The position numbers and the translations under genes are program-made. The notes below the pieces were generated by a model that searched no databases, was not told the origin of the DNA, and saw only the letters and a program-made list of their open reading frames with translations. A stretch of DNA of 58,201 nt from Acidobacteria bacterium Ga0077534 (GTDB taxonomy: Bacteria; Acidobacteriota; Blastocatellia; Pyrinomonadales; Pyrinomonadaceae), in the NCBI GenBank assembly GCA_001464455.1, contig LNEI01000007.1, positions 1-58,201 of the forward strand. The letters are read 5' to 3'. Positions 32,940 to 40,726 of the stretch are shown here, in pieces (position 1 is the first letter of the stretch; each line of letters begins with the position of its first letter).

Positions 32940-32976
32940 TTGACATAGCGGCCATCTGTAACTATACTGGTTACAG
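32940..32976 (+). promoter_or_regulatory. Promoter and overlapping operator of the Rrf2 regulator gene
   Basis: A near-consensus promoter, TTGACA (32940-32945), 17-base spacer, TATACT (32963-32968), carries a perfect inverted repeat CTGTAAC-7-GTTACAG (32956-32976) whose spacer contains the -10 box. The ATG follows at 32979, so the transcript would be nearly leaderless. A repressor bound here would block RNA polymerase directly, which suits autoregulation by the Rrf2 protein. Confidence 0.8.
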
Positions 32977-32978
32977 TT

Positions 32979-33404
32979 ATGGCGGCTAATAGTCAATTTT
33001 CGATGGCAGTTCATATTTTGACGATGCTCGCGACAGCGGGTGACGAAAACGTCAAATCGGACTACATCGCAGGGAGCGTAAACACCAATCCGGTGGTGAT
33101 CCGACGCATCCTTAGTCAGTTGAATGCGGCTGGATTGGTCACATCACAGACCGGTGCTTTTGGCGGGACGCGGCTTGCGAAGCCGCCGTCTGAGATCACT
33201 TTGTGTTCGATATACAAGGCTGTTTCGTGCGGTGAAGTGTTTGCATTGCACGCAAAAGGTCCGAACATGGATTGCCCGGTCGGTAGGGGCATCGAGACGG
33301 TCTTATGTGATCTGCAAAAAGAGATCGAAAAGAGCGTCGGCGAGAAACTTGGGCAATACACACTGGCGACAGTGATCGAGAAAGTTTCGGTCGCGCATGT
33401 GTAA
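32979..33404 (+). CDS. Rrf2-family transcriptional regulator
   Basis: The 141-residue protein has the Rrf2 winged-helix layout: 'QFSMAVHILTMLAT', 'KSDYIAGSVNTNPVVIRRILSQLNAAGLVTSQTGAFGG', then 'LAKPPSEITLCSIYKAV'. It resembles the YwnA-type members. Cysteines lie at 76, 84, 99 and 110; this does not match the three-cysteine Fe-S ligand set of IscR/NsrR, so a thiol-switch sensor is more likely. CTGTAAC/GTTACAG repeats lie both on its own promoter and before the ten-gene redox operon downstream, which makes that operon its probable target. Confidence 0.9.
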   Translation: MAANSQFSMAVHILTMLATAGDENVKSDYIAGSVNTNPVVIRRILSQLNAAGLVTSQTGAFGGTRLAKPPSEITLCSIYKAVSCGEVFALHAKGPNMDCPVGRGIETVLCDLQKEIEKSVGEKLGQYTLATVIEKVSVAHV

Positions 33405-33410
33405 ATTTTT

Positions 33411-33451
33411 TTGACTGTAACTGTATCAACAATAGTTACAGATATGTTACA
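33411..33451 (+). promoter_or_regulatory. Probable operator/promoter of the redox operon
   Basis: The same half-sites as in the regulator's own promoter recur: CTGTAAC (33415-33421) and GTTACAG (33435-33441) with a 13-base spacer. A third half-site GTTACA (33446-33451) lies exactly 11 bp from the second. TTGACT at 33411-33416 with a weak TAGTTA at 33433-33438 could be the promoter. The site lies 15-55 bases upstream of the nitroreductase gene and its AGGGGAGA ribosome-binding site. Confidence 0.7.
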
Positions 33452-33465
33452 AACAAGGGGAGAAT

Positions 33466-34119
33466 ATGGGAAATAAATTGGTTCAAAATGACGTTTTACT
33501 AGAAGGCTTGAATTGGCGCTATGCAACTAAAGCCTATGATCCGACGAAGAAAGTTTCTGATGAGGATTGGGCAACGATCGAGGCGGCACTTACGCTTGCC
33601 CCTTCGAGCTTCGGTATTCAGCCTTATAAATTCTTTGTAATCACTGATCCGGAGACCCGCGAGAACCTGAAGGCGGCGGCCTACGGACAGTCGCCGATAT
33701 CCGACGCTTCGCACATAGTTGCGTTCGCGTATAAGAAGACGCTGACGGATGGCGATATAGAGCATTTTGTCGATCGAATTGCTGAGGTTCGAGGCGTTTC
33801 GAAAGATACGCTTGCGGATTACGGCAATGTGATGAAGGGGTCTGCGAAGCGCGCGGTTGACGGTGGCTACATCGAGACATGGAACTCGCGGCAGGCTTAC
33901 ATTCCACTTGGCTTCCTCCTTCAGACGGCGGCTCTGCTCGGGATCGACGCGACGCCGATGGAAGGATTTGATGCCGGCAAGGTCAACGAAGTGCTCGGCC
34001 TGACCGACTATTCGGTCGTTGTTCTGGCGGCGGTGGGTTACCGCGACGCGGAGAATGACTGGCTTGCTGCACTGCCAAAGGTTCGCGAACCGATCGAAAA
34101 CATTATCGTGCGGGTCTGA
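33466..34119 (+). CDS. Nitroreductase-family NAD(P)H-dependent oxidoreductase (NfsB-like)
   Basis: This FMN flavoenzyme class reduces nitro groups, quinones and other electrophiles. The 217-residue protein has 'LNWRYATKAYDP', 'LTLAPSSFGIQPYKFFVI', 'ASHIVAFAYKK', 'RQAYIPLGFLLQTAALLGIDATPMEGFD' and 'VVLAAVGYRDAENDW', the NfsB/YdgI-type blocks. It is the first gene of the Rrf2-associated redox operon, with a good AAGGGGAG ribosome-binding site. Members of this family are often the main target of thiol-sensing repressors. Confidence 0.9.
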   Translation: MGNKLVQNDVLLEGLNWRYATKAYDPTKKVSDEDWATIEAALTLAPSSFGIQPYKFFVITDPETRENLKAAAYGQSPISDASHIVAFAYKKTLTDGDIEHFVDRIAEVRGVSKDTLADYGNVMKGSAKRAVDGGYIETWNSRQAYIPLGFLLQTAALLGIDATPMEGFDAGKVNEVLGLTDYSVVVLAAVGYRDAENDWLAALPKVREPIENIIVRV

Positions 34120-34233
34120 AGGCCGCATTCATGGAGGGAAGCATGACAACATTTTTAGCAAACTTGACGCCGCGGGCGTTGGATATCTTCAAGCTTTTCG
34201 CAAGATTTATGGGCCTGTGATCAAGGGGGCGAA

Positions 34234-34848
34234 ATGAAAGAGTACTTGGAAAAGGCGATGACATTCGCCGAATACGAAAAATGTATCGATGATCTGTTGG
34301 CAGAAGGGAAGACGACAGGTCCTAATCAGTCGGAAGCGATGGTCGGCTACGGGCGGCTGAATCGTCAGCGCATGGAACGACTTGGGAAGACGGTCGAACT
34401 CGGCAATGAAGTGCGAGCTGCATTGCGATCGGCCGGTCGCAAAATGATCTGGCTGATCCTTACCGAGGGTTGGTGCGGGGATGCGGCCCAAAACATTCCC
34501 GTTATCGAAAAGATCGCGGTAGCAAGCGAGAATATCGAGACGCGGTATCTACTTCGTGATGAGAATCCTGAGCTTATCGATCAGTTTCTGACAAACGAAG
34601 CAAGAGCGATCCCTAAACTGATCGCGATCGACGCCGAGACGTTTGAGATTCTTGGGTCCTGGGGAGCTCGGCCGGAAAAAGCACAGGAATTATATGTCCG
34701 GCTTCGCGAGGAAGGAATTGCAAAACCGCAGATCATGGAAGAGCTTCAGCGTTGGTATAATGCGGATAGATCAAATTCGCTGCAGATAGAATTTTCCTCT
34801 CTGATCAAGAATTGGGGTCAGGCGAAGGTGAAGAACGCGGCGGTCTAA
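34234..34848 (+). CDS. Thioredoxin-family protein with a monothiol WCGDA site
   Basis: The 204-residue cytoplasmic protein resembles the Thioredoxin_9 family: a helical N-terminus ('QRMERLGKTVELGNEVRAAL'), then 'MIWLILTEGWCGDAAQNIPVIEKIA', 'TRYLLRDENPELIDQFL' and 'ARAIPKLIAIDAETFEILGSWG'. The second cysteine of the CxxC is replaced by alanine, so only one thiol remains in the motif, as in many of this family. Second gene of the redox operon. The 114 bases before it hold only a doubtful 29-codon frame (34131-34220). Confidence 0.83.
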   Translation: MKEYLEKAMTFAEYEKCIDDLLAEGKTTGPNQSEAMVGYGRLNRQRMERLGKTVELGNEVRAALRSAGRKMIWLILTEGWCGDAAQNIPVIEKIAVASENIETRYLLRDENPELIDQFLTNEARAIPKLIAIDAETFEILGSWGARPEKAQELYVRLREEGIAKPQIMEELQRWYNADRSNSLQIEFSSLIKNWGQAKVKNAAV

Positions 34849-34881
34849 ATACAAACTAACATTTCCGAGGAGACGAAAAAA

Positions 34882-35568
34882 ATGAGTAAGACATTTACAG
34901 TAGCGATCCTTTCAGCGGCCTTGTTTGCCGCGTCGTGCGCCGATCCGGCGGCGAATAAACCTAAGGCGACAACATCGCCGTCCTCAAATTCAAACGCGAA
35001 TGCCGCGGCAAATACCGCGACGGCCCCGGCAGCGTCGACTGATGTTTTTGCGGGATTTAAGGCAACGGGAACCGAACTTAGTTTTGGGCCGGAGACTTCG
35101 AAGATCGAATTTACCGGTTCGAAGGTCACGGGCAAACATGACGGCGGATTCAAATCGTTTAAGGGGGCTGTCGATCTCGTCGGCGATAAGGCTGAGACGA
35201 GCCGCGTGATCTTTGACGTAGACATGGCCTCCGTTTTCTCGGATGCTGACGGGCTGACGAAGCACCTTCAGACTGGCGACTTCTTTGAGGTTGAAAAGTA
35301 TCCGAAAGCTTCGTTTGCATCGACCAAGATCGCTCCGGAAGCAGGCAAGGCTGATACCTATACGGTTACGGGCGATCTAGAAATGCGTGGCGTAAAGAAA
35401 TCGATCACGTTCCCGGCAACGATCAAGATCGCTAACGGATCCGCTGATGTAAAGGCTGAATTCTCGATAAACCGTAAGGATTTTGGTATCGTTTACGCCG
35501 GCAAGGCTGACGACCTGATCCGCGACGATGTGGTTCTTCGGCTCGATATCAAAGCCGCGAAAAAATGA
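34882..35568 (+). CDS. YceI-family lipoprotein
   Basis: The start codon follows a GAGGAGA ribosome-binding site. The protein has a lipoprotein signal with lipobox 'LFAASC' (C19), a low-complexity Asn/Ala/Thr linker, and a YceI lipocalin-like domain ('TSKIEFTGSKVTGKHDGGFKSFKGAVDLVGD', 'VDMASVFSDADGLTKHLQTGDFFEVEKYPKASF', 'GDLEMRGVKKSITFPATI'; key pattern residues only). YceI proteins bind isoprenoid or amide lipids such as ubiquinone precursors. Its stop overlaps the next start by four bases. Confidence 0.9.
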   Translation: MSKTFTVAILSAALFAASCADPAANKPKATTSPSSNSNANAAANTATAPAASTDVFAGFKATGTELSFGPETSKIEFTGSKVTGKHDGGFKSFKGAVDLVGDKAETSRVIFDVDMASVFSDADGLTKHLQTGDFFEVEKYPKASFASTKIAPEAGKADTYTVTGDLEMRGVKKSITFPATIKIANGSADVKAEFSINRKDFGIVYAGKADDLIRDDVVLRLDIKAAKK

Positions 35569-36581
35569 TGAAAGCTTGGGTCATAAACGAATTCGGGATA
35601 GATAACCTCGCTTTCGAGGATCGTGAAAAGCCGCAAGCGGGGTCGGGAGACGTTGTTGTCCGGCTCCGCTCCGCATCGCTAAACTATCGCGATTTTATGG
35701 TCGTCACGGGCACGTACAATCCCCGAATGAAGGTTCCAGCGATTCCCGTCTCAGATGGTGCCGGTGAGATCGTCGAGGTTGGCTCGAATGTCGCGAAATG
35801 GAAGGTTGGCGACCGGGTCATGCCAATCTTTGCACAGCATTGGTTTGACGGAGAGACAAGCGAAGAGAAACGTCGAACTTCTTTAGGGGCTGGTTCGCAA
35901 TGGGATGGCGTGCTTCGCGAATATGCCGCTTTCCACGAAGAGTCACTCGTCAAGATCCCGGAGAGCCTTTCGTTCGAGGAGGCTTCCACGCTGCCCTGTG
36001 CGGGCGTCACTGCCTGGAACGCCTTGTCGGTTTCGGGGAATGTAAAAGCCGGGGAGACTGTGCTGACACTCGGGACGGGCGGAGTTTCGATCTTTGCTCT
36101 TCAGCTAGCAAAACTTTTCGGGGCTCGGGTAATTGCGACTACGAGCAGCGAAAGTAAGATGGCGAAACTAAAGGAACTGGGAGCTGACGAGACGATCAAC
36201 TACCGGGTTCGCGAAGATTGGGACAGTGCTGTTCTTGAGATTACAGAAAAGAAAGGGGTTGACCATGTGATAGAGGTAGGCGGCGGGGACACGCTTGGCC
36301 GCTCGCTCACGTCCGTACGTCTCGGCGGACACGTCGCGATGATCGGGGCATTGTCCGGACCAGCAGGATTTAACCCTATTTCCGTGTTTATGAAGGCTGT
36401 CAGGCTTCAGGGGATCTTCGTTGGCTCGCGAAAGATGCTTGAGGACCTGTGTAAGGCTGTCGAGGTAAACCGGATGAAGCCGGTTATTGATCGGGTTTTT
36501 GAGTTCGACGAAGCTCGCGAAGCTTTAAAATATATGCAGAGCGGTTCGCATTTTGGGAAGATCGTTTTGCGGATCAGCTAG
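35565..36581 (+). CDS. Zinc-independent NAD(P)-dependent alcohol dehydrogenase / quinone oxidoreductase
   Basis: This MDR-superfamily enzyme has an N-terminal GroES-like domain ('VVVRLRSASLNYRDFMVVTGTY', 'IPVSDGAGEIVEVGSNVAKWKVGDRV') and a Rossmann domain ('TLGTGGVSIFALQLAKLFGARVIATTSS', 'VDHVIEVGGGDTLGRSL'). The catalytic zinc cysteine/histidine set of alcohol dehydrogenases is absent ('LNYRD' replaces 'xCGTD'), which points to a quinone or enone reductase. Third oxidoreductase of the redox operon; starts inside the yceI-like stop (ATGATGA). Confidence 0.9.
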   Translation: MMKAWVINEFGIDNLAFEDREKPQAGSGDVVVRLRSASLNYRDFMVVTGTYNPRMKVPAIPVSDGAGEIVEVGSNVAKWKVGDRVMPIFAQHWFDGETSEEKRRTSLGAGSQWDGVLREYAAFHEESLVKIPESLSFEEASTLPCAGVTAWNALSVSGNVKAGETVLTLGTGGVSIFALQLAKLFGARVIATTSSESKMAKLKELGADETINYRVREDWDSAVLEITEKKGVDHVIEVGGGDTLGRSLTSVRLGGHVAMIGALSGPAGFNPISVFMKAVRLQGIFVGSRKMLEDLCKAVEVNRMKPVIDRVFEFDEAREALKYMQSGSHFGKIVLRIS

Positions 36582-36613
36582 TTTACGACAGGGGAAGAAC
36601 AAGGAGTAATAAA

Positions 36614-37684
36614 ATGGCGACATTATTTGACGGATTGACGATCGGAGACATCAAACTTAAGAACAGGATCATATTCGCGCCGATGACGCGCAGCAGGGCT
36701 AATGACGAAGGTGTGCAGCCGGATTTTGTGGCCGAGTACTACGAGCAACGTGTTTCGGGCGGGCTGTCGATCACCGAAGCGACGAACGTTTCACCGATGG
36801 CGAAAGGCTACGTACGCACCCCCGGCGTGTATACACCGCAACAGATCGAGTCATGGAAAAAGGTGACCGAAAGAGTTCATACAAAAGACGGCAAGATCTT
36901 TATGCAACTCTTTCATACCGGCCGCATTGCCTTGCCGGACTTTCTGCCGGGCAACACGTCCCCGGTCGCTCCGTCAGCGGTGAAAGCTGCGGGTGAGAAT
37001 TACACTGACGACGGGATGAAGGAGTTTGTCGAACCGCGTGAGTTGAGTGTGGACGAGATTGCGGTTATCGTGCAAGATTTCGCAACGGCGGCGAAAAATG
37101 CGATCGAGGCGGGCTTTGACGGCGTCGAGATCCACGGAGCCAATGGCTACCTGATACAGCAGTTTCTTTCAACTAACGTTAACAAACGTACTGACGGCTA
37201 TGGCGGATCGATCGAGAATAGAAGTAAGTTTTTGTTTGAAATTCTCGACGCAGTAACCGAAGCGATCGGAAGTGAGCGAACAGGTTTGCGGCTTTCGCCC
37301 GGCGGCGAGTTCAACGACATCAAGGAAGATGACGCTGAGGAGCTCTATAAGTATGTTATCGCTAAGCTGAACGATTACGGGCTCGCATACCTTCATATCG
37401 GAACGTTCGACCAAAACCGCGACTGGCATCCCGTTCTGAGTCCGCTTTATAGCGGAGTTTATTTTGCTGGTGTCGGCTTTGATAAGGATCGGGCAGAGAA
37501 GGTGTTGGCAGATGGCGGTGCCGATGCGATCGTCTTTGGCAAGCTTTTCCTCGCGAATCCTGACCTGCCGGAGCGGTTTCGCCAGAATGCACCGTTGAAT
37601 ACACCGGACGAATCTACGTTTTATACTCCGGGTGAAAAGGGGTATACAGATTATCCATTTCTCGAAATGGCCAAGGCGGTTTAG
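36614..37684 (+). CDS. Old Yellow Enzyme family alkene reductase (NemA-like)
   Basis: This FMN enzyme reduces activated C=C bonds in electrophilic compounds and can reduce nitrate esters. The 356-residue TIM barrel shows 'LKNRIIFAPMTRSRAN', 'QLFHTGRIALP', 'GFDGVEIHGANGYLIQQFLS' (catalytic HxxN and the nearby Tyr), 'RTDGYGGSIENR' and 'ADAIVFGKLFLANPDLPERF'. It lies 32 bases after the dehydrogenase, with an AAGGAG ribosome-binding site. In Gram-negative bacteria this gene is a classical target of an electrophile-sensing repressor (NemR), which supports the proposed role of the cluster. Confidence 0.94.
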   Translation: MATLFDGLTIGDIKLKNRIIFAPMTRSRANDEGVQPDFVAEYYEQRVSGGLSITEATNVSPMAKGYVRTPGVYTPQQIESWKKVTERVHTKDGKIFMQLFHTGRIALPDFLPGNTSPVAPSAVKAAGENYTDDGMKEFVEPRELSVDEIAVIVQDFATAAKNAIEAGFDGVEIHGANGYLIQQFLSTNVNKRTDGYGGSIENRSKFLFEILDAVTEAIGSERTGLRLSPGGEFNDIKEDDAEELYKYVIAKLNDYGLAYLHIGTFDQNRDWHPVLSPLYSGVYFAGVGFDKDRAEKVLADGGADAIVFGKLFLANPDLPERFRQNAPLNTPDESTFYTPGEKGYTDYPFLEMAKAV

Positions 37685-37703
37685 GGCTGGTATTCGATAG
37701 GAG

Positions 37704-38354
37704 ATGACCATGAAGATCGGAATAATTGGGGCGGGGAACATCGGGGCAAACGCCGCCCGGCTTTTTGTGAAAGCGGGACATCTGGTTACCATCAGCAATT
37801 CTCGTGGCGGTGATACGCTTAACGAATTGGTCGAGGAACTTGGCGACAATGCTCAAAGTGCGAATGTAGAAGCGGCAGTCGATTTCGGTGACGTGGTTTT
37901 TATATCGATACCGCTCGGGAAGTATCAGAGCCTTCCGACAAATGGCTTTAACGGCAAGATCGTTATCGATTCGAACAACTACTATCCTGATCGCGATGGG
38001 TTTATCGAGGAACTCGACAATGGTTCGACGACTTCAAGCGAACTGCTCGCGGCTCATCTACCGGGAGCCCGCGTAGTTAAAGGGTTTAATACCATCTGGT
38101 TTGAACATCTGAGGACTCTGGGCAACACCGATCTGCCTCTCGCGGATCGCCGGGCGATCTTTATCGCGGGGGACGACACCGAGGCTAAAGCTGTCGTGGC
38201 TGGATTGATCGAGGATATTGGATTTGCGGCGGTCGACACGGGATTCTTGAGCGAAGGCGGCCGTTCGCAACAGCCGGACTCGCTGATCTACAATAAGAAC
38301 TTAACCGCAGTAGAAGCGGCGGACCTGATCCGCTACGAGTCGCTTCAGGATTAA
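37704..38354 (+). CDS. NADPH-dependent F420 reductase-like NAD(P)-binding protein
   Basis: The 216-residue protein has an N-terminal dinucleotide-binding motif 'IGIIGAGNIGANAARLF', 'HLVTISNSRGGDTL', 'DVVFISIPLGKYQSLP' and a C-terminal part 'ARVVKGFNTIWFEHL', as in the F420-dependent NADP reductase family (COG2085). Most bacterial members act on other substrates, so F420 use should not be assumed. The start may be ATG 37704 or 37710. Member of the redox operon, 19 bases after the alkene reductase gene. Confidence 0.88.
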   Translation: MTMKIGIIGAGNIGANAARLFVKAGHLVTISNSRGGDTLNELVEELGDNAQSANVEAAVDFGDVVFISIPLGKYQSLPTNGFNGKIVIDSNNYYPDRDGFIEELDNGSTTSSELLAAHLPGARVVKGFNTIWFEHLRTLGNTDLPLADRRAIFIAGDDTEAKAVVAGLIEDIGFAAVDTGFLSEGGRSQQPDSLIYNKNLTAVEAADLIRYESLQD

Positions 38355-38420
38355 ATAGGTAAATTTTTGTTGTCGAAGCGTTTTTTTTTGAGAGCATTAT
38401 AAAATAAGGAGATATAAGGC

Positions 38421-38972
38421 ATGGCTAATAAACTTTATGAGATCCCGGTTCGCCGGATCGATGGTACGGAAACAACATTGGGTGAGTTTGAGGGCAAGAC
38501 ACTGCTGCTCATTAACGTTGCGTCAAAGTGTGGGTTAACGCCTCAGTACGCAGGAATGGAAAGTCTCTATAAGGAATATAAAGATAAAGGCTTTGAGGTG
38601 CTAGGTTTTCCTGCGAACAATTTCAAAGGGCAAGAGCCTGGAACGAACGAAGAGATCAAGGATTTTTGCGAGTCGAATTACGACGTGACCTTTCCGCTAT
38701 TCGAAAAGATATCGGTTATCGGCGAAGATCAACATCCGCTTTATAGCTATCTGACCAGCGAAAAGAGCGAAGCCGACATTGCTAACGGCGGTGAGTTTGA
38801 GGAGAAGCTTAGGGCATTTGGGCATACTCGGGAGAAAGCGGATGACCTTCTTTGGAACTTCGAGAAGTTTCTCATCGCGAAAGACGGAAGCGTAGCGGCG
38901 AGGATCGCCCCTGACGTGACCGCAGAAGACGAGCGAGTCGTTGCGGCTTTGGAAGCCGAACTCGCAAAGTAA
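38421..38972 (+). CDS. Glutathione peroxidase-family protein (Cys type)
   Basis: The 183-residue protein has the family blocks 'LLINVASKCGLTPQYAGMESLY' (peroxidatic C37), 'GFEVLGFPANNFKGQEPGTNEEIKDFC' (active-site Gln and a possible resolving Cys) and 'LLWNFEKFLI' (active-site Trp/Asn). The active residue is cysteine, not selenocysteine. Such enzymes are usually thioredoxin-dependent peroxidases, which fits the thioredoxin gene at the end of the operon. A T9 tract and AT-rich stretch upstream (38381-38405) may contain an internal promoter. Confidence 0.94.
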   Translation: MANKLYEIPVRRIDGTETTLGEFEGKTLLLINVASKCGLTPQYAGMESLYKEYKDKGFEVLGFPANNFKGQEPGTNEEIKDFCESNYDVTFPLFEKISVIGEDQHPLYSYLTSEKSEADIANGGEFEEKLRAFGHTREKADDLLWNFEKFLIAKDGSVAARIAPDVTAEDERVVAALEAELAK

Positions 38973-38975
38973 CAA

Positions 38976-39836
38976 ATGAACGAGAAAAAGGTTTGGTTTA
39001 TAACCGGGTGTTCGACCGGATTCGGGCGGGAACTTGCGAAACAGCTGCTCGAGGGCGGTTACCGGGTAGCGGTGACTGCCCGCGATGTAGACAAGGTGCG
39101 AGATCTGGTCGAGATAAACGAGGCAAATGGACTCGCTCTTACGCTCGACGTGACCGATAAGCAGCAGGTTGCCGAAGCAGCTGCGGCGGCGGAAGCTCAT
39201 TTTGGCCGGATCGACGTGCTCGTCAACAACGCGGGTTTCGGCTATTTTGGGGCAGTCGAGGAAAGTGATGAATCAGAAGTTCGAGCGATGTTCGAGACGA
39301 ATTTCTGGGGCCTCACTTCGATGACCCAGGCAGTTTTACCGAAAATGCGAGAGCGACGAAGCGGCGTGATAGTCAATATTTCGTCGATCGGCGGTTTGGT
39401 CGGCAATCCCGGCGTCGGGTTTTATAACGCGACGAAATTTGCTGTAAACGGCATTTCTGAGGCGTTGAAAAAGGAATTGGCTCCGCTTGGGATCAGCGTC
39501 ATCCTTGTTCAGCCGTCGGGCTTCCGAACGGATTGGGCGGGTCGTTCGGCAGTTGATACGGCTGTTCAGATCGAGGACTACGCAGAGACTGCTCGGGTCA
39601 ATCAGGAAACGATCCGCGGCAACAGCGGTAAGCAGCCAGGCGATCCGGTTCGGGCGGCTAGAGCGATCATCGACGCTGTTGAGTCCGACGATCCGCCGTT
39701 CAGTCTTCTGCTCGGAAGAGCGGCACTTCGCGGGGCCCGGGCAAAGATAGAGAGCCTTATCGAAGAGACAGAGAAATACGCGGCGATCTCGGAGGGAGCG
39801 GATTTTCCTGAGGCGGACGCCGCACAGGGCAAGTAA
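38976..39836 (+). CDS. Short-chain dehydrogenase/reductase (SDR)
   Basis: The classical SDR motifs are present: 'WFITGCSTGFGRELAKQL' (TGxxxGxG), 'VLVNNAGFGYFGAVEE' (NNAG), 'IVNISSIGGLVGNPG' and the catalytic 'YNATKFAVNG' (YxxxK). The 286-residue length and 'ILVQPSGFRTDWAGRS' match the 'classical oxidoreductase' SDR group. Substrate unknown, plausibly a reactive carbonyl. It starts three bases after the glutathione peroxidase stop. Confidence 0.92.
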   Translation: MNEKKVWFITGCSTGFGRELAKQLLEGGYRVAVTARDVDKVRDLVEINEANGLALTLDVTDKQQVAEAAAAAEAHFGRIDVLVNNAGFGYFGAVEESDESEVRAMFETNFWGLTSMTQAVLPKMRERRSGVIVNISSIGGLVGNPGVGFYNATKFAVNGISEALKKELAPLGISVILVQPSGFRTDWAGRSAVDTAVQIEDYAETARVNQETIRGNSGKQPGDPVRAARAIIDAVESDDPPFSLLLGRAALRGARAKIESLIEETEKYAAISEGADFPEADAAQGK

Positions 39837-39857
39837 GAAAAATACGGAGATAAAATT

Positions 39858-40283
39858 ATGGCAGGAAGAAAAGCAAAGGCTTCGTGGAAAGGAACGTTGA
39901 AGGAAGGCGAGGGCAGCATCGCTCTTGGCAGTGGTTTGTTCGAAGGGCCGTTTTCATTTGGTACCAGACTCGGTGATGAGCCGGGGACAAATCCGGAAGA
40001 GATGCTAAGCGCTTCGCTGGCCGGTTGTTATGCAATGGCCTTGAACGCGGCACTTGAGCGGGCCGGAACGCCGGCGAACATGGTGAAAACCGAGGCCAAT
40101 TCGCATCTTGGCAAGGACGACGCGGGGTTGGCGATCGTTGGCATCGATCTCGTTGTCCGTGCTGAAGTTCCAGGGCTCGATGCCGACGGATTTGCCGCTA
40201 TTGCTGAAAAAGTGAAGACCGAATGTCCGATCTCAAAGGCGCTGGCCGCGGTAAAGATAAACCTCGACGCAGAGCTCGCTTAG
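39858..40283 (+). CDS. OsmC/Ohr-family peroxidase
   Basis: OsmC-type proteins reduce organic hydroperoxides using two cysteines, with a lipoyl or other dithiol donor. The 141-residue protein carries both: C57 in 'LSASLAGCYAMALNAAL' and C123 in 'KTECPISKALA'. Other family blocks are 'GTNPEEMLSASLAGC' and 'AEVPGLDADGF'. It lies 21 bases after the SDR gene in the redox operon. Confidence 0.93.
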   Translation: MAGRKAKASWKGTLKEGEGSIALGSGLFEGPFSFGTRLGDEPGTNPEEMLSASLAGCYAMALNAALERAGTPANMVKTEANSHLGKDDAGLAIVGIDLVVRAEVPGLDADGFAAIAEKVKTECPISKALAAVKINLDAELA

Positions 40284-40314
40284 TTGGTGTTTGGTATATC
40301 GGCTAAGATATAAT
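40284..40314 (+). promoter_or_regulatory. Candidate internal promoter for the thioredoxin gene
   Basis: A perfect TATAAT (40309-40314) with TTGGTG (40284-40289) 19 bases upstream lies in the 57-base gap before the thioredoxin gene. It would allow thioredoxin to be made independently of the operon promoter. Confidence 0.45.
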
Positions 40315-40340
40315 TTCGAGAGTTTTTTAAGGAGAAGATA

Positions 40341-40667
40341 ATGGCACATTTTGCTGGTGAGATAACGGACTCGAATTTTGAGACGGATGTTTTGGGATCG
40401 GACAAACCGGTCCTGGTGGATTTTTGGGCCGAATGGTGCGGCCCGTGTCGTATGATAGCCCCCACGGTCGAGGCGGTAGCTGAGGAGTATCAGGGAAAAG
40501 CAGGTGTTTTCAAGATGAATGTCGATGAGAACATGAACGTCCCGCAGCAGTATGGTATTCGCGGCATTCCCACGTTGATCCTATTCAAGGGCGGTCAGGA
40601 GCAGGAACGTATCGTCGGAGCAGTAACGCGTGAGGCGATCACGCGGGTGATCGATAAGTACGTCTAG
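40341..40667 (+). CDS. trxA: Thioredoxin
   Basis: The canonical cytoplasmic thioredoxin of 108 residues has the active site 'FWAEWCGPCRMIAP' (C33, C36), 'NVDENMNVPQQYGIRGIPTLILF' with the cis-proline, and normal length. It probably supplies electrons to the glutathione peroxidase-like protein of the operon. Last gene before the terminator. Confidence 0.96.
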   Translation: MAHFAGEITDSNFETDVLGSDKPVLVDFWAEWCGPCRMIAPTVEAVAEEYQGKAGVFKMNVDENMNVPQQYGIRGIPTLILFKGGQEQERIVGAVTREAITRVIDKYV

Positions 40668-40691: not shown

Positions 40692-40726
40692 AAAGCCGCT
40701 GTGACGACCAGTCATAGCGGCTTTTT
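40692..40726 (+). terminator. Rho-independent terminator of the redox operon
   Basis: Stem AAAGCCGCT (40692-40700) pairs with AGCGGCTTT (40716-40724), with an inner GTGAC/GTCAT helix, followed by TTTTTCTTG. Confidence 0.88.

Follow-up and report, generated by a model that had tools for sequence, protein, structure and literature searches.

The described repressors closest to the one considered here are SifR of Streptococcus pneumoniae and YwnA of Bacillus subtilis, which belong to the Rrf2 family. SifR recognises the operator TGTAA-N9-TTACA and is released from DNA when a quinone adds to its sole conserved cysteine, and HypR of Staphylococcus aureus has the same operator core (PMC9218516). 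Roadblock repressors form another group with features relevant to this locus. Natural examples exist (PMC10310618), and with LacI constructs, PurR, CcpA and CodY it is an operator located downstream of the promoter that blocks elongation (PMC4132739, PMC10310618). In E. coli, the RNA polymerase stalled at LacI roadblocks is removed largely by Mfd (PMC4132739), and EcoRI-E111Q stalls RNA polymerase 12–13 nt upstream of its own site (PMC3913778). The terminators of Pol I (Reb1, Nsi1, TTF1) have a T-rich stretch about 15 bp ahead of the bound protein; Pol I stops 15 bp before Reb1, and the T-rich stretch aids its backtracking (PMC12366685).

In the window, i.e. the whole stretch of 58,201 nucleotides analysed here, an Rrf2 regulator gene of 141 codons for amino acids (32979..33404, forward strand; Pfam PF02082, 110.5 bits) with cysteines at positions 76, 84, 99 and 110 of its product is followed by ten larger genes reaching up to 40667, among which oxidoreductases and thiol proteins predominate. 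The first large gene of the operon encodes a nitroreductase (33466..34119; PF00881, 76.7 bits). The remainder of the operon (34234..40667, all on the forward strand) comprises the genes for a thioredoxin-like protein (from 34234), YceI (from 34882), a quinone-reductase-like ADH (from 35565), an OYE/NemA-like protein (from 36614), an F420-oxidoreductase-like protein (from 37704), GPx (from 38421), SDR (from 38976), OsmC (from 39858) and, as the last gene, a thioredoxin (from 40341). Past this gene, a terminator-like hairpin with a 14-pair stem followed by T's is located at 40692..40724 of the same strand. From the common strand and the close spacing, we infer that the regulator-linked genes up to 40667 form a single transcript. 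A 25-aa ORF, MTTFLANLTPRALDIFKLFARFMGL (34143..34220, forward strand), is a possible conserved operon microprotein. Its look-alikes of the same length, in L010, L011, L012, L014 and L015, occupy the equivalent position or lie shortly downstream of the second operator described below. In a named search with at least 591 relatives, of which the 80 best were kept, the top matches of the regulator come from Pyrinomonadaceae and other Acidobacteriota. One more Rrf2 gene is present in the same genome (L008, G000:C18).

For comparison we used a family set of 70 loci. They come from 69 genomes within the order, our own genome included, and are high scorers among 119 genomes; the set leaves out eight matches of comparable score (G008, G016, G018, G085, G095, G096, G101 and G109). 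Structure comparison revealed YwnA (1xd7) and BC1842 (1ylf) as the closest solved structures. In the AlphaFold model of the regulator (pLDDT 86.7) a helix spans residues 100–124, and Cys99 therefore sits at the helix start. This residue is conserved in all 70 family loci and in 29 of 29 alignment rows, while Cys110 occurs in 49, Cys84 in 46 and Cys76 in 11 of the 70, and C84 and C110 occur jointly in 39. In addition, 32 further loci have a cysteine at the Cys99 position, found by motif search in 26 and by eye in the other six. The motif itself, HAKGPNMDC, deviates from HxxPNPxC in having M for the second P and one extra residue between H and P.

The Rrf2 fold and family, the conserved cysteine at the helix start and the TGTAA-N9-TTACA sequence, which is perfect in operator 1 and has one change in operator 2 as a putative binding site, are all found here. 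Judged by its sequence, the regulator is thus a predicted quinone-sensing (monothiol) Rrf2 protein of the SifR/YwnA class. It shares with SifR and YwnA the family, the invariant cysteine at the helix after the connector, the operator and the quinone-related targets (PMC9218516). It differs from them in possessing three additional cysteines, of which C84 and C110 are common in the family, and in the range of its putative targets, which include nitroreductase, OYE, OsmC, thioredoxins and bshA. The resemblance to HypR consists of the operator core (PMC9218516) and a weak model match (NCBIfam NF041852, 61.2 bits), which is below the cut-off of 180 bits; furthermore, the regulator has no cysteine before residue 76 and therefore no partner like HypR Cys33, so that the Cys33/Cys99 pair has no equivalent here. 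The dithiol motif C-X7-C, conserved in the connector of SaiR, does not place the regulator with SaiR either: the window has C76-X7-C84, and C76 is kept in just the 11 of 70 loci mentioned above. The preliminary description had concluded that the four cysteines do not fit the Fe-S set of IscR/NsrR and that thiols may be sensed in a new way. The former holds, as the IscR and NsrR models fail (26.3 vs 207.55 and 22.1 vs 182 bits) and only one cysteine is invariant. Thiol sensing is indeed the likely mode, but it is not new, since the SifR operator and a quinone sensor with one cysteine in the same motif have been published (PMC9218516).

The promoter of the regulator gene, P1 (32940..32968, forward strand), consists of TTGACA (32940–32945), 17 bases and TATACT (32963–32968), corresponding to 11 of 12 consensus bases. 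Operator 1, CTGTAACTATACTGGTTACAG (32956..32976, forward strand), covers the -10 box and matches YTGTAAC-N7-GTTACAR, with the arms CTGTAAC and GTTACAG around TATACTG. As proposed earlier, the first inverted repeat overlies this promoter, and ten bases read from the sequence separate the -10 box from the ATG at 32979. The arrangement is general for the family: operator 1 has 0 or 1 mismatch in 69 of 70 loci and two in the remaining one, and in 70/70 loci the best sigma-70 promoter begins 14 to 17 bases upstream of the operator (median 0 of 40 shuffles as good). Since operator 1 begins 20 to 23 bases upstream of the ATG in 56 of the 70 loci (and 24 bases in one more, with a longer leader in 13), the regulator mRNA from P1 is probably leaderless or has a very short leader.

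The second inverted repeat, upstream of the nitroreductase gene, was also confirmed. Operator 2, CTGTATCAACAATAGTTACAG (33421..33441, forward strand), has the arms CTGTATC and GTTACAG around AACAATA, and the sequences support a putative Rrf2-type operator common to the regulator’s own promoter and to the redox operon. Both repeats announced as CTGTAAC/GTTACAG are thus real, but the left arm of the second is CTGTATC. The spacing of 13 ascribed to it was a misreading: operator 2 has a spacing of 7 with a single mismatch in the left arm. The outer CTGTAAC (33415–33421) shares one base with operator 2, and TGTAA is retained there in just 2 of 45 loci, the window included; a spacing of 13 was rejected as a second operator geometry. 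The idea that two arm spacings tune affinity falls with it, since both spacings are 7 and operator 2 differs by a recurrent single-base defect.

For counting operator 2, L073 was excluded as it contains too little sequence, leaving 69 loci. In 45 of them operator 2 is present downstream of the regulator gene, with one or two mismatches each and in no case as a perfect match (0/45); these 45 loci are related, not independent, and the counts carry this kinship. In 42 of the 45 loci, it is the left arm's fifth base that deviates (TGTATC in 25, TGTAGC in 14, TGTACC in two, and TGTAGT in one that carries a second change), while the remaining three are altered elsewhere. Five loci near the window’s family (L199–L202 and L210) lack the operator. 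The N7 pattern with up to three mismatches has three matches in the window (0, 1 and 3 mismatches) against a shuffle mean of 0.84; as 5 of 100 shuffles reach three matches, the window alone is not decisive. The third half-site reported at a phase of 11 was corroborated by the family: GTTACAA (33446..33452, forward strand) starts 11 bases past the start of the right arm GTTACAG (33435), and 12 of 45 loci have GTTA there, compared with at most two at any other offset tried. The full GTTACA is present there in three of the 45.

Operator 2 is accompanied by a run of T’s. In the window, TTTTTTT of the coding strand (33406..33412) covers positions -15 to -9 relative to operator 2, and in 41 of 45 loci position -9 is the exact end of the longest T-run within 26 bases upstream of the operator. 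TTT occupies positions -11 to -9 in 42/45 loci at operator 2 vs 2/70 at operator 1, and runs of at least five T’s occur in 30/45 loci with operator 2 vs 0/24 without it (Fisher p about 1e-8, kinship ignored). The distance of the run is constant to the operator, not to the stop codon. No mirror A-run was found on the far side of operator 2 in the 45 loci; the T-run therefore tracks the direction of transcription and not the palindrome. The pattern TTTT-N9-TGTANC-N7-GTTACA was detected at 36 places in 33 of the 119 genomes of the order, vs 2 places for the control.

To cover other lineages, we compiled 54 loci from a named collection and from a search across the phylum to which the Anaerolineae bin L208 belongs; the sample comprised L198–L236, drawn from the 80 best relatives mentioned above, 20 search loci and L243, from which duplicates and loci with a short downstream part were removed. 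By a relaxed pattern, 26 of the 54 have an operator no more than 150 bases past the regulator gene. A run of at least four T’s ends at -9 in 15 of these 26, lies elsewhere within 24 bases in six and is lacking in five; by a stricter pattern, 13 of 23 operators have the T-run at -9. The 15 loci, among them Gemmata, Corallococcus, Archangium, two Anaerolineae bins, Kurthia and a deltaproteobacterial bin, include 11 from outside Acidobacteriota (according to titles and search group) and four from Acidobacteriota, and their distance from stop codon to operator ranges from 16 to 98. For the promoter side, we took the best operator match no more than 200 bases from the start in the 32 further loci that were also inspected for the Cys99 position: 20 have 0 or 1 mismatch, six have two, four have three and two have four, while the reversed control gave at least three mismatches in all 32.

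The order of Kurthia was represented by 30 loci out of 69 genomes with a match, one of which is the Kurthia locus of the previous set. Operator 2 is present in 30/30, in 29 of them with 0 or 1 mismatch. Four loci have a run of at least four T’s that ends at -9, ten have it at -10, two at -11 and one further off; in 13 there is none within 24 bases (own count). By our own reading of the folds, a hairpin lies upstream of operator 2 in 29 of 30 loci, and the stretch before the operator folds better than its shuffled versions, of which a median of 1 in 100 is as good (five or fewer in 22 of 30 loci). A -10-like TA...T is found in the spacer in 17 of 30, with a median -10 score of 6.92 and a median score of the opposite -35 of -1.05. 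Because the T-run is at -9 in only 4/30 and a -10-like box is present in 17/30, the site may be a promoter in this order, and these sequences can fairly be read as a putative terminator with a second promoter behind it. The order of Kurthia thus indicates that the element before operator 2 can resemble a termination signal. In a sample of Kurthia’s phylum, the pattern search gave a weak signal of 12 places in 9 of 398 genomes, with 2 places for the control. In four of these nine genomes (L238, L251, L252 and L253), the module follows an Rrf2 gene that is read towards it; L243 is operator 1 seen from the opposite strand, and L244, L245 and L247–L250 hold no Rrf2 gene.

The preliminary description suggested scanning the genome for more sites. 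Perfect matches to YTGTAAC-N7-GTTACAR number 54 across 41 genomes of the genus, vs 4 for the reversed-pattern control (summed rows), and 37 of the 41 genomes contain one. This enrichment did not extend to looser matches: with up to two mismatches, our own genome gives 15 matches vs 34 for the control, and therefore only near-perfect sites are meaningful. Further operators were found upstream of trxA at the operon end in eight mapped loci (L108, L111, L113, L116–L119 and L121), in six of which TTGACA is flush with the left arm; when two similar sites are counted in, exact TTGACA is flush with the left arm in 7/10, and the right arm forms part of the -10 box. Between the window’s operon and trxA there is no operator within three mismatches. 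The matches in L114 and L126 fall inside a coding frame, L120 has another one, and a site on C26 of our own genome, with one mismatch, was set aside as possibly due to chance.

An unlinked SDR operon has a pair of operators in three of the four genomes with upstream sequence, including our own; such sequence is lacking for one SDR locus. The upstream operators are preceded by TTGACA in 3/3 and carry the promoter, and at the downstream operators, 76–80 bases further, TTTT ends at -9 in 3/3. In one relative (L153, G076:C9), the SDR gene has no operator pair (best 3 mismatches) and adjoins a second Rrf2 gene, which is 36% identical. Upstream of bshA, the bacillithiol synthase gene (TIGR03999, 494.3 bits), an operator with 0 or 1 mismatch occurs in 6 of 22 loci (upstream sequence is lacking for two), including our own genome, where TTGTAACAGAAACTGTTACGA is located 60 bases upstream of the start in L131 (G000:C16:89860-90999). 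The bshA operator would link the regulator to bacillithiol synthesis.

What operator 2 does behind the regulator gene can be explained in several ways. The usual layout of a regulator with its target would have operator 2 cover a second, weak promoter (with a T-rich -35, a poor -10 or another sigma factor), which drives the operon separately from the regulator and is blocked at initiation in the manner of SifR and HypR. The T-run is close to the register that the -35 box has at operator 1, -10-like boxes occur in 17 of the 30 loci of the Kurthia order, and L063, which has operator 2 and no T-run, shows TTGTAA-17-TATCAT (2 of 40 shuffles as good). However, the opposite -35 is poor in the Kurthia order, and in the window’s family a median of 23 in 40 shuffles score as well as the best sigma-70 promoter at operator 2 (45 loci), the top -10 score of the spacer, 0.91, is below those of shuffled spacers (1.33) and of operator 1 (6.49), and TA...T at +7 occurs in 1/45. 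Moreover, the other operators of the regulon keep clear boxes, as described above for the trxA/operon-end sites and the upstream SDR operators. We found no support for operator 2 as a sigma-70 promoter site in the window’s family and consider the second promoter as a whole unlikely. In L025, which has no operator 2, the start of the next gene overlaps the regulator stop (own reading), and P1 must therefore be able to drive the operon there. By consensus scoring, operator 2 has the properties of a roadblock site, being placed in a presumably transcribed region without a promoter of its own.

The T-run might also be no more than the tail end of the regulator gene’s own intrinsic terminator, its position beside the operator being incidental. 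The hairpins and the better-than-shuffled folding in the Kurthia order agree with this, but in the window’s family a hairpin of at least five pairs stands beside the T-run in 1 of 42 loci, there is no excess folding upstream of operator 2 (median 43 of 100 shuffles as good; 7 of 45 loci with five or fewer), and it is the operator, rather than the stop codon, from which the run stays at a fixed distance. In the window itself, no hairpin is listed directly before 33406, and a 10-pair stem ends about 11 bases upstream of the T-run. An intrinsic terminator at the T-run was rejected for the window’s family, and we regard this explanation as highly improbable. Hardly better are the prospects of the T-run being an architectural element which, by a bend or an extra contact, raises the affinity of the repressor for asymmetric operators and leaves RNA polymerase unaffected. 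A/T tracts bend DNA, and a helper of this kind would suit an operator that is never a perfect match in the family. Yet the run is one-sided, upstream in terms of transcription, and it is found before operators in which both arms are perfect as well (L208, L220, L235 and SDR_B of L005); we consider this role improbable.

The T-run together with an operator that lacks a promoter suggests that the bound repressor may halt RNA polymerase there. We favour an elongation gate at operator 2 since the T-run lies where the RNA 3' end of a polymerase stopped by the repressor would be expected, and roadblock repressors are known. A stall 12–13 bases short of the operator, the distance found with EcoRI-E111Q (PMC3913778), would land inside the T-run. 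In our opinion, the chances are about even that the locus is an autoregulated redox operon in which a repressor of the SifR/YwnA class would set two locks, one on initiation and the other as a stop at operator 2. The reduced repressor on operator 1 would cover the -10 box of the sole recognisable promoter and block initiation. On operator 2 it would stall RNA polymerase within the T-run, where the weak RNA–DNA hybrid may favour backtracking and release, so that the basal transcripts renewing the repressor would end ahead of the detoxification genes. Quinones or other electrophiles would modify Cys99 and free both operators simultaneously. What we infer from this arrangement is that the repressor binds and represses, which chemicals it senses, and that transcription ends at operator 2.

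We propose more tentatively, and somewhat short of an even chance, that T7-N8-operator is a repressor-gated terminator located behind monothiol Rrf2 regulators in several phyla. Here the repressor would replace the hairpin, and its release would open the promoter and disable the terminator, making the module an inducible bacterial counterpart of the Pol I terminators. The latter are eukaryotic and require a hairpin: a T-rich stretch with a roadblock and without an RNA hairpin gave no RNA release (PMC12366685), whereas 41 of 42 family loci here have no hairpin of at least five pairs beside the T-run. It also counts against the gated stop that the T-run sits near the register expected for a -35 box, and operator 2 should be weaker as a roadblock because it is always mismatched in the family. 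Roadblock repression is already known. The available portions of the papers on roadblock repressors (PMC4132739, PMC10310618) make no mention of a T-run at a constant distance, the main text of the SifR paper contains neither the word roadblock nor the word terminator (PMC9218516), and we found no description of a stop module composed of a T-run and an operator in the open-licence literature.

If the gated terminator is real, a single transcript would be governed at initiation and at elongation by one small repressor, with the T-run as a readable sequence signature for such operators. Whether a DNA-bound protein and a U-tract may end bacterial transcription without a hairpin would then become a testable question, as would the reason why many relatives retain a promoterless operator directly after the regulator gene.
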